DNA from: Gottfriedia acidiceleris
GTDB lineage: Bacteria; Bacillota; Bacilli; Bacillales; Bacillaceae_G
DNA: 64,000 nucleotides
Direction of reading: 5' to 3'
Assembly (NCBI RefSeq): GCF_002128425.1
Contig: NZ_NESS01000007.1
Location: 187,555 to 251,554, forward strand
Shown: positions 21,606-24,992 of the stretch, piece after piece
Layout of the letters: each line of letters starts with the position of its first letter
Numbering within the stretch: position 1 is the first letter of the stretch
The notes under the pieces: generated by a model
What the model was told of the DNA's origin: nothing
Databases searched by the model: none
The model's input: only the letters and a program-made list of their open reading frames with translations
Translations under genes and position numbers: made by a program

Positions 21606-21721
21606 CCGAATATTATAAATAAAAAAATAAGAATTCTTTATTTCCAAGTATCTTCTTAATCATCAACTTATGTGAATAATGAATAATTCAAAAACCAACA
21701 ATACATATTGAGTAGTTACAT

Positions 21722-21752
21722 AGCGACTATTGAAAAGTCGCTTTTACTTTTC
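21722..21752 (+). promoter_or_regulatory. Terminator-like leader hairpin before speD
   Basis: Perfect 7-bp stem AGCGACT (21722-21728) / AGTCGCT (21736-21742) followed by TTTACTTTT. It lies about 50 bases before the speD start and well past the previous gene's own terminator. It may be an attenuator of the polyamine operon. Confidence 0.5.
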
Positions 21753-21792
21753 GTACACACTTTTTCACTTTATAAAACTAGGAGGACAATAG

Positions 21793-22632
21793 ATGAATAT
21801 TTCATCGTCAAATAATAACTTTCAACTCTATGGTTTTAATAACTTAACGAAATCATTAAGTTTTAATATGTACGATATTTGCTTTACAAAAACAAAAGAA
21901 GAACGTGAAGCATATATACAGTACATCGATGATCAATATAACGCTGACCGTTTAACAAAAATATTGACTGAGGTTACACATATCATTGGTGCGCACATTT
22001 TAAATATTGCAAAACAAGACTACGATCCCCAAGGAGCAAGTGTTACGATTCTCGTTTCAGAAGGTCCAGTTGATAATCCATCATCTGAAACTTTCTCAGA
22101 ATCTCCAGGACCCTTACCGGAGTTAGTAGTAGCAGCTTTAGATAAAAGCCATATTACCGTTCATACTTATCCTGAATATCATCCGGATGATGGAATTAGT
22201 ACGTTCAGAGCAGATATTGATGTATCTACTTGTGGAGAAATTTCTCCTCTAAAAGCTTTGAATTATTTAATTCACCAATTTGACGCTGATATTATGACTA
22301 TTGATTATCGTGTTCGAGGTTTTACTCGTGATGTTAGTGGTTATAAATTATTTATTGATCATGATATCAACTCAATTCAAAACTATATTCCTCAAAAATT
22401 AAAAGACATGTACCAAATGATTGACGTAAATGTGTTCCAAGAAAATATCTTCCATACAAAATGTAAGTTAAAACAATTTGATTTGGATAATTATCTTTTT
22501 GGCTATACAAAAGAAAAATTAGATGAAAAAGAAATCAAGGAAATAGAAGAAAAAGTGAAGTATGAAATGGATGAAATCTTTTACGGGAAAAACCTATGGA
22601 ATGGTCCTGATGTGGAGGATATTGATGGATGA
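21793..22632 (+). CDS. speD: S-adenosylmethionine decarboxylase, E. coli-type
   Basis: 279 residues, close in sequence to the E. coli SpeD class: [40 protein letters not shown] and [16 protein letters not shown]. It is not the short (about 125 aa) SpeD/SpeH type of B. subtilis. The proenzyme cleavage site is Lys118-Ser119 in [13 protein letters not shown], with Ser119 becoming the pyruvoyl group. The Cys in [18 protein letters not shown] is the expected catalytic acid. It makes decarboxylated SAM, the aminopropyl donor. GGAGG lies 7 bases upstream. Its TGA overlaps the next ATG (ATGA). Confidence 0.93.
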
Positions 22633-24959
22633 TTGATCATAGTAAAACACCGCTTTTAACTGAATTAGTCCGATATGCTAAGGAAGACATCACGAGCTTT
22701 GATGTACCTGGGCATAAAAGAGGAAATTCACTCGAGGAATTAAGAGAACTTTGGAGTGATATGGCTCTTAAAATGGATGTTAATTCTTCAAAGCGTGTTG
22801 ATAACTTATCGCATCCAACGGGTGTAATTCAAGAAGCCGAAACTTTATTAGCAGATGCATTTCATTCTGATCACGCTTATATGTTAGTAAATGGTTCAAC
22901 TTCTGGAGTTCAATATATGATTATGAGCGCCCTTGAACATGGCGATAAAATTCTCCTGCCAAGGAATGTACATAAATCCGCAATAAATGCATTAATTTTA
23001 GCCGGCGCAAAGCCTGTATTTATTGAACCAGAAATCGATTATGAGTATGGAATTGTAAATGGTGTTTCAGTAAAATCTGTTCTTCATGCCTTAGATTTAA
23101 ACTCGGATGTTAAAGCCATTCTTATTATCAATCCGACTTATTTTGGAGCAACCTCGGATTTAGAACAAATTATCGACATAGGCCATTCCAGGGGGATTCC
23201 TGTTTTAGTAGACCAAGCTCATGGTGCACACTTTTCGTTCCATCCTGATTTACCAAGTAACGCTGCCCTTCTTGGTGCTGACCTTGTAACTCTTAGTTTG
23301 CATAAAACTGGTGGTGCCTTAACACAAGCATCAGTTCTACTACATAATGATGGGATCATTACTAAAAATAGGGTTCGTTCTACAATTAATTTATTTCAAA
23401 CGACATCTGCTTCTTATTTACTTATGTGTTCAATCGATGTTGCGAGAAAGAAATTAGTTTTAGAAGGTCACGAACGTTTTGAAAAATTACTCAATTTAAC
23501 AAGAAAAGCTAAAGAAGAAATTAACAATATAAAAGGATTAAAATGTATAACTCGAGATTCTTATCGAAATGGAGTTGGCGTATTCGATTACGATGAGTTA
23601 AAACTTGTTGTTAAAGTGTCAGAATTAGGATTGTCTGGTTTTAAAGTATATGACATGCTTGCAGAACAATATAAAATTCAAATCGAGCTTGCAGAACCTA
23701 ATGTCATTTTAGCAATTATCTCGCTAGGTGATAATGAAGACACGATTCAAACTTTAATTGATGCATTAAGGGATATTAGTGACCGATATTACGGTAAACT
23801 TCCAAAGCTTGAGACAGATATAAGTGTTGCATTAAAAAATCCTAAAATGGTTATGACTCCTAGGGAAGCGTACTATCATCCAAAACGTATTATTTCAATT
23901 CATGATGCTAGTGGCTTAATTAGTGGTGAATCAATCATGATTTACCCACCTGGTATCCCTCTTTGTATACCAGGTGAACTAATTTCATCCGAATTGATTC
24001 AGCATTATCTTTATTTAAAAGCAGAAGGAACAATCACAATCAACGATGATGATGATCCTTATATAATAAAAGTCGTCGATCGAAGTTTGGAGGAAAATTT
24101 AATGGATTTATGGTATACAGAAAATCACCAAGAAGATACGAAATTCTCCATAAAGGTTCAAGAACATATTCATTCTGAAAAAAGTGAATTTCAACAAATC
24201 GATTTCTTTAGAAGTGAAACATTTGGAACTTTCTTTACTCTAGATGGTTATATGATGGTTACTGAAAAAGATGAATTTATCTACCATGATATGATTACCC
24301 ATGTATCAATGGCCGTTAATCCAAACATAAAAAAAGTGCTAATTATCGGTGGGGGCGACGGTGGTACTGCACGTGAGGTATTACGTTATCCAAATGTGGA
24401 AGTTGTCGATATGGTCGAAATTGATGAGCGTGTTGTAAGACTATGCCAACAATACTTACCTTTAACGGCTTCAAAATTAGATCAAGATAAGCGATTAACC
24501 TTATATTTTGAAGATGGTTTAAAGTTCGTACAAGAAGCTGATGAAGGTTATTACGATCTGATTTTGGTAGATTCAACTGATCCAATTGGACCTGGTGAAG
24601 GGCTTTTTACAGTTGCTTTCTATAACAATTGTAAACGGGTATTAAGTGAAGAAGGTATACTAATTAACCAGCATGAAAGTCCATATTACGCTAGTTACGC
24701 ACACGAAATGAAACGTGCTCATTCAAAAATTAAAGAAACATTTCCAATTTCAAGAGTCTATCAATTCCATATGCCAACTTATCCATCTGGACATTGGTTA
24801 TTCGGATTTGCTTCAAAAAAATACGACCCAATTAAAGACATTAAAGCTGATGAATGGAATAAGCTAGGGATCGAAACAAAATATTATAATACAGACCTAC
24901 ATGTTGGTTGCTTTATGCTTCCTACTTATGTAAAGAAACAATTAGATAATGAAGAGTAA
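22629..24959 (+). CDS. Fused PLP Orn/Lys/Arg decarboxylase - spermidine synthase
   Basis: 776 residues holding two complete enzymes. Residues 1-491 are a SpeA/YaaO-type fold-I decarboxylase: [20 protein letters not shown] (Asp195) and [10 protein letters not shown] (Lys226, PLP Schiff base), with a full C-terminal domain ending near IIKVVDR. Residues 492-776 are a full Spe[17 protein letters not shown] (574-579), [11 protein letters not shown] (648-658), TYPSGHW. The six-residue linker SLEENL is the translation of a ribosome site (GGAGG, 24089-24093) 8 bases before an in-frame ATG at 24102. Free SpeE could therefore also be made. Whether the first domain uses arginine or ornithine is not readable. 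The start overlaps speD. Confidence 0.93.
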
Positions 24960-24967
24960 ATAGAGAA

Positions 24968-24992
24968 AACCAGCTAAAAGCTGGTTTTTTTG
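24968..24992 (+). terminator. Terminator of the polyamine operon
   Basis: Perfect 8-bp stem AACCAGCT/AGCTGGTT, loop AAA, then T5. Confidence 0.92.

Follow-up and report, generated by a model that had tools for sequence, protein, structure and literature searches.

A conserved natural fusion of an amino-acid decarboxylase with spermidine synthase that keeps a candidate internal start codon and is likely of single origin and laterally shared

The window analysed here, a stretch of 64,000 nucleotides of Gottfriedia acidiceleris DNA taken as a whole, contains a two-gene polyamine unit in which speD is followed by one long gene that joins a PLP-dependent decarboxylase to a spermidine synthase (SpeE). 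The features of the unit are:

21722..21742, + strand: terminator-like hairpin in the speD leader, from a hairpin scan
21780..21785, + strand: AGGAGG, the speD ribosome-binding site, read from the sequence and kept in 10 aligned loci
21793..22632, + strand: speD, an E. coli-type (class 1a) S-adenosylmethionine decarboxylase of 279 aa (TIGR03331, 468.6 bits, cut-off 255.8; PF02675, 59.4, cut-off 25)
22629..24959, + strand: fusion gene, 776 aa, its start overlapping the speD stop as ATGA
22629..24101, + strand: decarboxylase half, residues 1-491, PLP Lys226 (PF01276, 253.7 bits, cut-off 27; PF03711, 39.4, cut-off 24.2)
24089..24093, + strand: internal GGAGG, putative ribosome-binding site for a free SpeE, the sole GGAGG in the window's gene and kept in all 27 fusions read
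24102..24956, + strand: SpeE half, residues 492-776 (PF17284, PF01564, TIGR00417, PRK00811), with the stop codon at 24957-24959
24966..24988, + strand: hairpin followed by a T run, the likely terminator of the two-gene unit (the scan reports the - strand; the + strand was read by eye)

The coupling of the fusion to an E. coli-type speD, claimed in an earlier sequence-only reading of this DNA, is confirmed by the ATGA overlap and by a TIGR03331 score that passes the cut-off and assigns the upstream SpeD to class 1a. The speD leader (21660-21792) is conserved in the 10 of 13 genus loci that could be aligned, the remaining three giving no match to the anchor. Its hairpin, kept in all 10 and retaining its pairing through G-T in locus L013, sits between the promoter region and the ribosome-binding site and could be a regulatory element, a putative attenuator. 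Inspection of this leader by eye gave no good match to a regulator box.

The open reading frame at 22629-24959 (+) runs through 776 codons without an internal stop. OKR_DC_1 (residues 7-370) and OKR_DC_1_C (399-463) are matched above the curated Pfam cut-offs, as are Spermine_synt_N (494-546) and Spermine_synth (549-731), and the SpeE half also exceeds the NCBIfam cut-offs of PRK00811 (382 bits, cut-off 260) and TIGR00417 speE (295 bits, cut-off 250). An HKTGG motif starting at residue 225 places the PLP lysine at Lys226. With 491 residues, this lysine and no N-terminal REC wing, the first half has the ancestral form of the AAT-fold decarboxylases; the second has both the tetramerisation and the catalytic domain of a spermidine synthase and passes the family cut-offs. 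The proposal of a natural 776-codon fusion of two complete domains, with the expected motifs and the PLP lysine at 226, is therefore upheld by these Pfam and NCBIfam matches and by the motif position. Since the frame is open in every one of the 13 genus genomes and, independently of these, in genomes of Clostridia, the fusion is not an assembly error. Between the window and locus L013, dN is 0.015 and 0.014 and dS 0.62 and 0.89 for the two halves, values indicating that purifying selection acts on both. An assembly error or a decaying gene, for which redundancy with a second gene set is the sole point in favour, is exceedingly improbable; the open frames across genomes and the low dN/dS of both halves effectively rule out an artefact or a pseudogene. 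The halves may channel their substrate, as the earlier reading suggested; the predicted structure of the fusion has a pTM of 0.64, and the model does not fix the mutual placement of the two domains.

The second gene set in the same genome comprises a separate SpeA-type decarboxylase (contig C41), a more distant decarboxylase called YaaO-like by similarity (C13), a separate speE (C34; TIGR00417, 402.2 bits) adjoining an agmatinase gene (TIGR01230, 381.7 bits against a cut-off of 174.3), a further agmatinase-type protein above the same cut-off (203.4 bits) and a short-type speD (C43:20413). SpeA-like, YaaO-like and separate SpeE matches accompany the fusion in 13/13 genus genomes. Because these genes coexist with it, the speD-fusion cassette is a second, extra system, an addition to the Bacillus-type pathway and not a replacement of it, and the idea that the fusion stands in place of separate B. 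subtilis-style genes has to be given up. The accompanying statement that no agmatinase gene is seen is correct for the window; for the genome it fails, since the suggested search for speB elsewhere finds both the gene beside the separate speE and the second agmatinase-type protein.

The fusion occurs in 13/13 genomes of the genus at 85-100% identity and in 0 of 6 other genomes of the family. Draws from the order (397 genomes), class (398) and phylum (398) gave no stop-free match over both halves outside the genus, and in 21 of the drawn genomes a single match spans both halves but is interrupted by one stop codon, or in one genome by two; two candidates per genome were scored in these draws, at E <= 1e-125. 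Scanning named genomes with the SpeE half gave 588 confirmed matches, and the best 80 of them, which were kept, contain five fusions: three come from the records Bacillus sp. AFS001701, AFS088145 and EAC, and another two from Epulopiscium records, 66% identical across the whole protein. This selection can miss fusions elsewhere, as the draw from the Epulopiscium order shows. Loci L110 and L112 lie at coordinates identical to those in genus genomes G008 and G007, which makes them members of the genus. Within the Epulopiscium order, 14 of 373 drawn genomes carry a fusion open across the junction: twelve are full-length and stop-free, both Epulopiscium genomes included, one is cut by a contig end, and one, also cut at a contig end and flagged with a stop, has that stop near the contig start. 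Identity of the fusions falls to 65%, the four full-length clostridial ones closest to the window's standing at 73-74%.

When 17 fusions and 11 unfused operons are placed in one tree, the fusions all fall into a single clade (support 100/100). This clade has four branches, in an order that the tree does not settle, and one of them is the genus. A quick tree of the decarboxylase half indicates kinship with Epulopiscium (support 99), and one of the SpeE half with Epulopiscium plus Niameybacter and Caproiciproducens (support 88). A single fusion event and lateral transfer between Clostridia and Bacilli are the likely history, and we infer that Clostridia were the donor because the fusion is more widespread there. 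The speD1a-speE-speB set closest to the fusion cassette is that of Niameybacter massiliensis (L114, 5145-7705), which has no decarboxylase between these genes; at another place the same genome has a second decarboxylase-speE pair. A candidate three-domain fusion in family f56 (L055-L060), with an open frame given as 945 aa, was rejected, as the four loci read (L055, L056, L058 and L060) have one gene each for the decarboxylase, the short speD, speE and speB; frame lengths given in such a genome search can thus point to fusions that are not there. No relative was found among 31 pattern matches in viral contigs. A plasmid collection gave 417 matching records, 30 of them listed, and two cover at least 80% of the query: the top record (H1) holds separate genes, and so, by its annotation, does H2, the second.

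The likely origin of the junction can be read from 51 adjacent but unfused decarboxylase/speE pairs, 17 of which have both genes in one frame. In six of these 17 (L151, L156, L160, L162, L174 and L187) GGAGG is followed by a few bases, a stop, one codon and ATG, with a second stop codon in place of that one codon in L160. The window's junction reads GGAGGAAAAT, then one codon, then ATG, and has an Asn codon where the unfused pairs carry the stop; across the fusions this position is Asn, or Thr in one. Both the ribosome-binding site of speE and its start codon survive in the window's gene, the candidate second start being Met492, 8 nt after GGAGG. The same pair of signals, GGAGG and an in-frame ATG 5 or 8 nt further on, is conserved at the domain border in all 27 fusions read; in nine of them the ATG has moved one codon towards GGAGG, to a spacing of 5 nt where the others have 8, and it is never lost. 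One row has an additional, out-of-frame ATG at 3 nt, its in-frame ATG being at 8. Of 5000 synonymous shuffles of the window's gene, 1.1% put GGAGG here, with a mean of 1.3 per gene; several clostridial fusions contain GGAGG elsewhere in the gene as well. Across 26 fusions the residue at codon 487 is L, Q, M, K, T or V, yet the third base of this codon is always G, the only invariant third base among the 177 columns in which at least four residues occur; Glu488 is the sole all-GAG column among 22 invariant Glu columns in 15 fusions (GAG share 0.18) and among 12 in 26 fusions (GAG share 0.29). These base counts come from related sequences, are not probabilities and are weaker than they appear.

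From the retention of a speE ribosome-binding site and start codon inside the gene we infer that the internal site is used, so that one mRNA would give two products, the 776-aa fusion and a free SpeE of 285 aa. The two coding units described earlier, speD and the fusion, are as stated, with the qualification that their products may number three. That only the full fusion is made, with the internal GGAGG and ATG as leftovers of the old speE start or kept for some other reason such as a translation pause, appears rather unlikely. The site is indeed inherited from the unfused arrangement, but the third base of codon 487 has stayed fixed under a variable residue in fusions down to 65% identity, the ATG has shifted by a codon in a third of the fusions without loss, and highly expressed genes tend to be poor in internal sequences that resemble ribosome-binding sites (PMC5100845).

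The dcAdoMet-binding pattern of the SpeE half, GGGDGG and then VEID, is invariant in 16/16 rows. According to PMC11107197, bacterial spermine synthases are characterised by Asp, Gly at +2, and Glu at named positions; the SpeE half carries this pattern, and so, in our alignment, does T. maritima SpeE, which is given there as a spermidine synthase only. Spermine formation by the SpeE half is possible, though not indicated. A spermine synthase, or an enzyme making both spermidine and spermine as a second aminopropyltransferase function beside the cell's own SpeE, would accord with the invariance of the pattern in those rows and with the presence of two aminopropyltransferases in the genome, as in several spermine-making species (PMC11107197). 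We regard it as very unlikely, given that the pattern is shared with the spermidine-only T. maritima enzyme and that the fusion is the only SpeE found in two Epulopiscium genomes.

Of the two substrates that the earlier reading allowed for the decarboxylase half, ornithine and arginine, both stay plausible; arginine is, on comparison with related enzymes and their gene neighbourhoods, about an even bet. SpeB lies downstream in 8/8 rows of the nearest unfused decarboxylase clade (L079, L096 and L179 being near-identical) and in 55 of the 66 loci that have both genes among the best 80 of 588 matches of the named scan, the two Epulopiscium fusions included; it adjoins 7/13 clostridial fusions. 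In the two Epulopiscium genomes, the only decarboxylase match other than the fusion is 31-32% identical. Tested Bacilli enzymes of the ancestral form are arginine decarboxylases (PMC8503589), and agmatine is commonly accepted by SpeE enzymes (PMC11107197). A set of 40 positions distinguishes two Fusobacteriaceae ODC-arginase rows from 74 rows linked to SpeB; there, SpeB-less fusions agree with the ODC rows at 1 position and with the SpeB-linked consensus at 18, and for SpeB-linked fusions the numbers are 1 and 17. Ancestry accounts for part of this, since at several of the positions the SpeA rows of Bacillus agree with the ODC rows too. The two rows are called ODC after PMC8503589, which assayed F. 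nucleatum and not these two.

An ornithine decarboxylase would make putrescine directly for SpeE, and SpeD and the fusion alone would then give spermidine with no need of a ureohydrolase. The absence of agmatinase from the window's cassette would suit such an enzyme, as would the lack of any arginase-family match in 5/13 clostridial fusion genomes (completeness not given), namely those of the four closest full-length fusions (73-74%) and of one cut fusion; the same search gives exactly one match in each of the other eight clostridial genomes and three or four in each of four genus genomes. Val57, moreover, is present in 26/26 fusions and in both ODC-arginase rows, with Leu in 135/139 other rows, and Arg31 is common to the SpeB-less fusions and both ODC rows. 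Val57 is also carried, however, by the seven clostridial fusions that SpeB adjoins, and the 40-position comparison, partly ancestral as it is, and the tested Bacilli enzymes likewise speak against ornithine, which we consider possible but somewhat unlikely. Ureohydrolases are present in the window's genome and agmatinase neighbours in its kin, yet five clostridial fusion genomes are without that family; in this branch, and perhaps in the window's genus, the enzyme may have shifted to ornithine, the guanidino group may be removed in another way, or N1-aminopropylagmatine may be the end product. In one ureohydrolase-less genome (G1347; 1,990,057 of about 3.4 million bases) there was no match to a motif for agmatine deiminase/carbamoylputrescine amidase, and the same bases hold one nitrilase-family protein, at 146.5 bits against an aguB cut-off of 410.25.

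Two candidate residue markers were dropped. Ser/Ala230 does not track the loss of SpeB and was discarded as an ODC marker; Gln/Met196 in place of Glu is found in 15/15 fusions, but Ser, Ala or Gln also occurs there in 9/139 other rows, several of them SpeB-linked. Residue 196 itself (23214-23216 in the window), which follows the conserved Asp195, is Gln or Met in fusions and Glu in 130/139 other decarboxylases. Five further operons (L132, L134, L146, L153 and L171) contain speD1a (where seen), a decarboxylase and speE, with no SpeB, and have a neighbour 80-85% like the L033 protein, which by resemblance we take to be carboxyspermidine-dehydrogenase-like; they may hold two spermidine routes side by side.

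We found no description of a decarboxylase-SpeE fusion in titles or abstracts of the open-access literature searched (subscription papers lay outside) or in the passages covered of PMC8503589, PMC10407285, PMC11107197, PMC12803844 and PMC9992855, and no case of this kind among the papers listed on internal starts in fused genes. The ODC-arginase fusion of Fusobacteriaceae also combines an ancestral-form decarboxylase of about 490 aa, without a REC wing, with a second, C-terminal polyamine-related domain; its arginase-like domain is judged inactive (PMC8503589), whereas the partner in the window is SpeE. The decarboxylases of the two fusions belong to different clades, and there is no arginase family among the Pfam matches of the window's fusion. 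A 781-aa decarboxylase of Ilyobacter polytropus (L192, 2992-5337), which resembles the Fusobacterium ODC-arginase fusion in kind and equals it in length, adjoins a lysine 2,3-aminomutase.

SpeD-SpeE fusions are reportedly the topic of a 2011 paper. They likewise join two polyamine enzymes with the aminopropyltransferase at the C-terminus (PMC11107197, PMC12803844), but there the partner is SpeD; in the window it is an amine-making PLP decarboxylase, and SpeD is a separate upstream gene, in which AdoMet_dc is matched, there being no such Pfam match in the 776-aa protein. The SpeD-SpeDC double decarboxylases, which are found beside speE, also place two consecutive or parallel polyamine steps on one polypeptide; unlike the window's fusion they are pyruvoyl enzymes of the SpeD fold with no SpeE domain (PMC10407285). 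If the decarboxylase is an arginine decarboxylase, the fusion would join in one chain two steps that are adjacent in the N1-aminopropylagmatine route of Thermus and Thermococcus, where the enzymes are separate, an order of reactions proposed as a possible default where arginine decarboxylase is used (PMC11107197). In-frame internal initiation to give a smaller C-terminal product, as proposed for the fusion, is known for Cas11 from within cas8 (PMC11899642); the Cas11 start is proven by experiment, and that of the fusion is deduced from conservation and would be a former gene start kept after the fusion. Taken together, the gene is a true and conserved natural fusion, of a kind without a description in the literature searched, likely of single origin and laterally shared, and its internal start is preserved.

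Our joint explanation, to which we give a probability of roughly one in two, is that the speD and decarboxylase-SpeE cassette would have arisen once, when two neighbouring genes in one frame lost the stop codon that divided them, and would have moved laterally between this Bacillus genus and a lineage of Clostridia. In the cassette, the decarboxylase half would supply the amine and SpeD the decarboxylated S-adenosylmethionine, from which the SpeE half would transfer the aminopropyl group. With both the fusion and free SpeE most likely produced, the free enzyme would allow the usual SpeE oligomers to form around the tethered decarboxylase. The most likely chemistry would lead from arginine through agmatine and N1-aminopropylagmatine to spermidine, the last step by an agmatinase encoded elsewhere in the genome. 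Against this explanation stand the need of the arginine route, unless another pathway serves, for a ureohydrolase, which those five clostridial genomes lack, and the occurrence of Val57, rare elsewhere, in the fusions and the two ODC-type rows. A more ambitious version, which we hold to be quite unlikely, is a self-contained shared cassette in which the tethered enzyme and free SpeE would take arginine straight to N1-aminopropylagmatine without free agmatine or putrescine, that amine possibly being the final polyamine in the ureohydrolase-less branch.

The enzymes of this unit are ordinary; the surprising and testable points are the joining of their steps and the likely dual output. Fusions tend to link consecutive pathway steps, and a decarboxylase joined to SpeE with agmatinase skipped makes the formation of spermidine via N1-aminopropylagmatine in bacteria directly testable, while the neighbouring ureohydrolase-less branch offers a natural contrast for arginine versus ornithine specificity in this enzyme family. 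The retained internal start illustrates how a fusion can arise through the loss of one stop codon with the free enzyme kept and, if that start is used, would be a natural example of two useful products made from a single gene.
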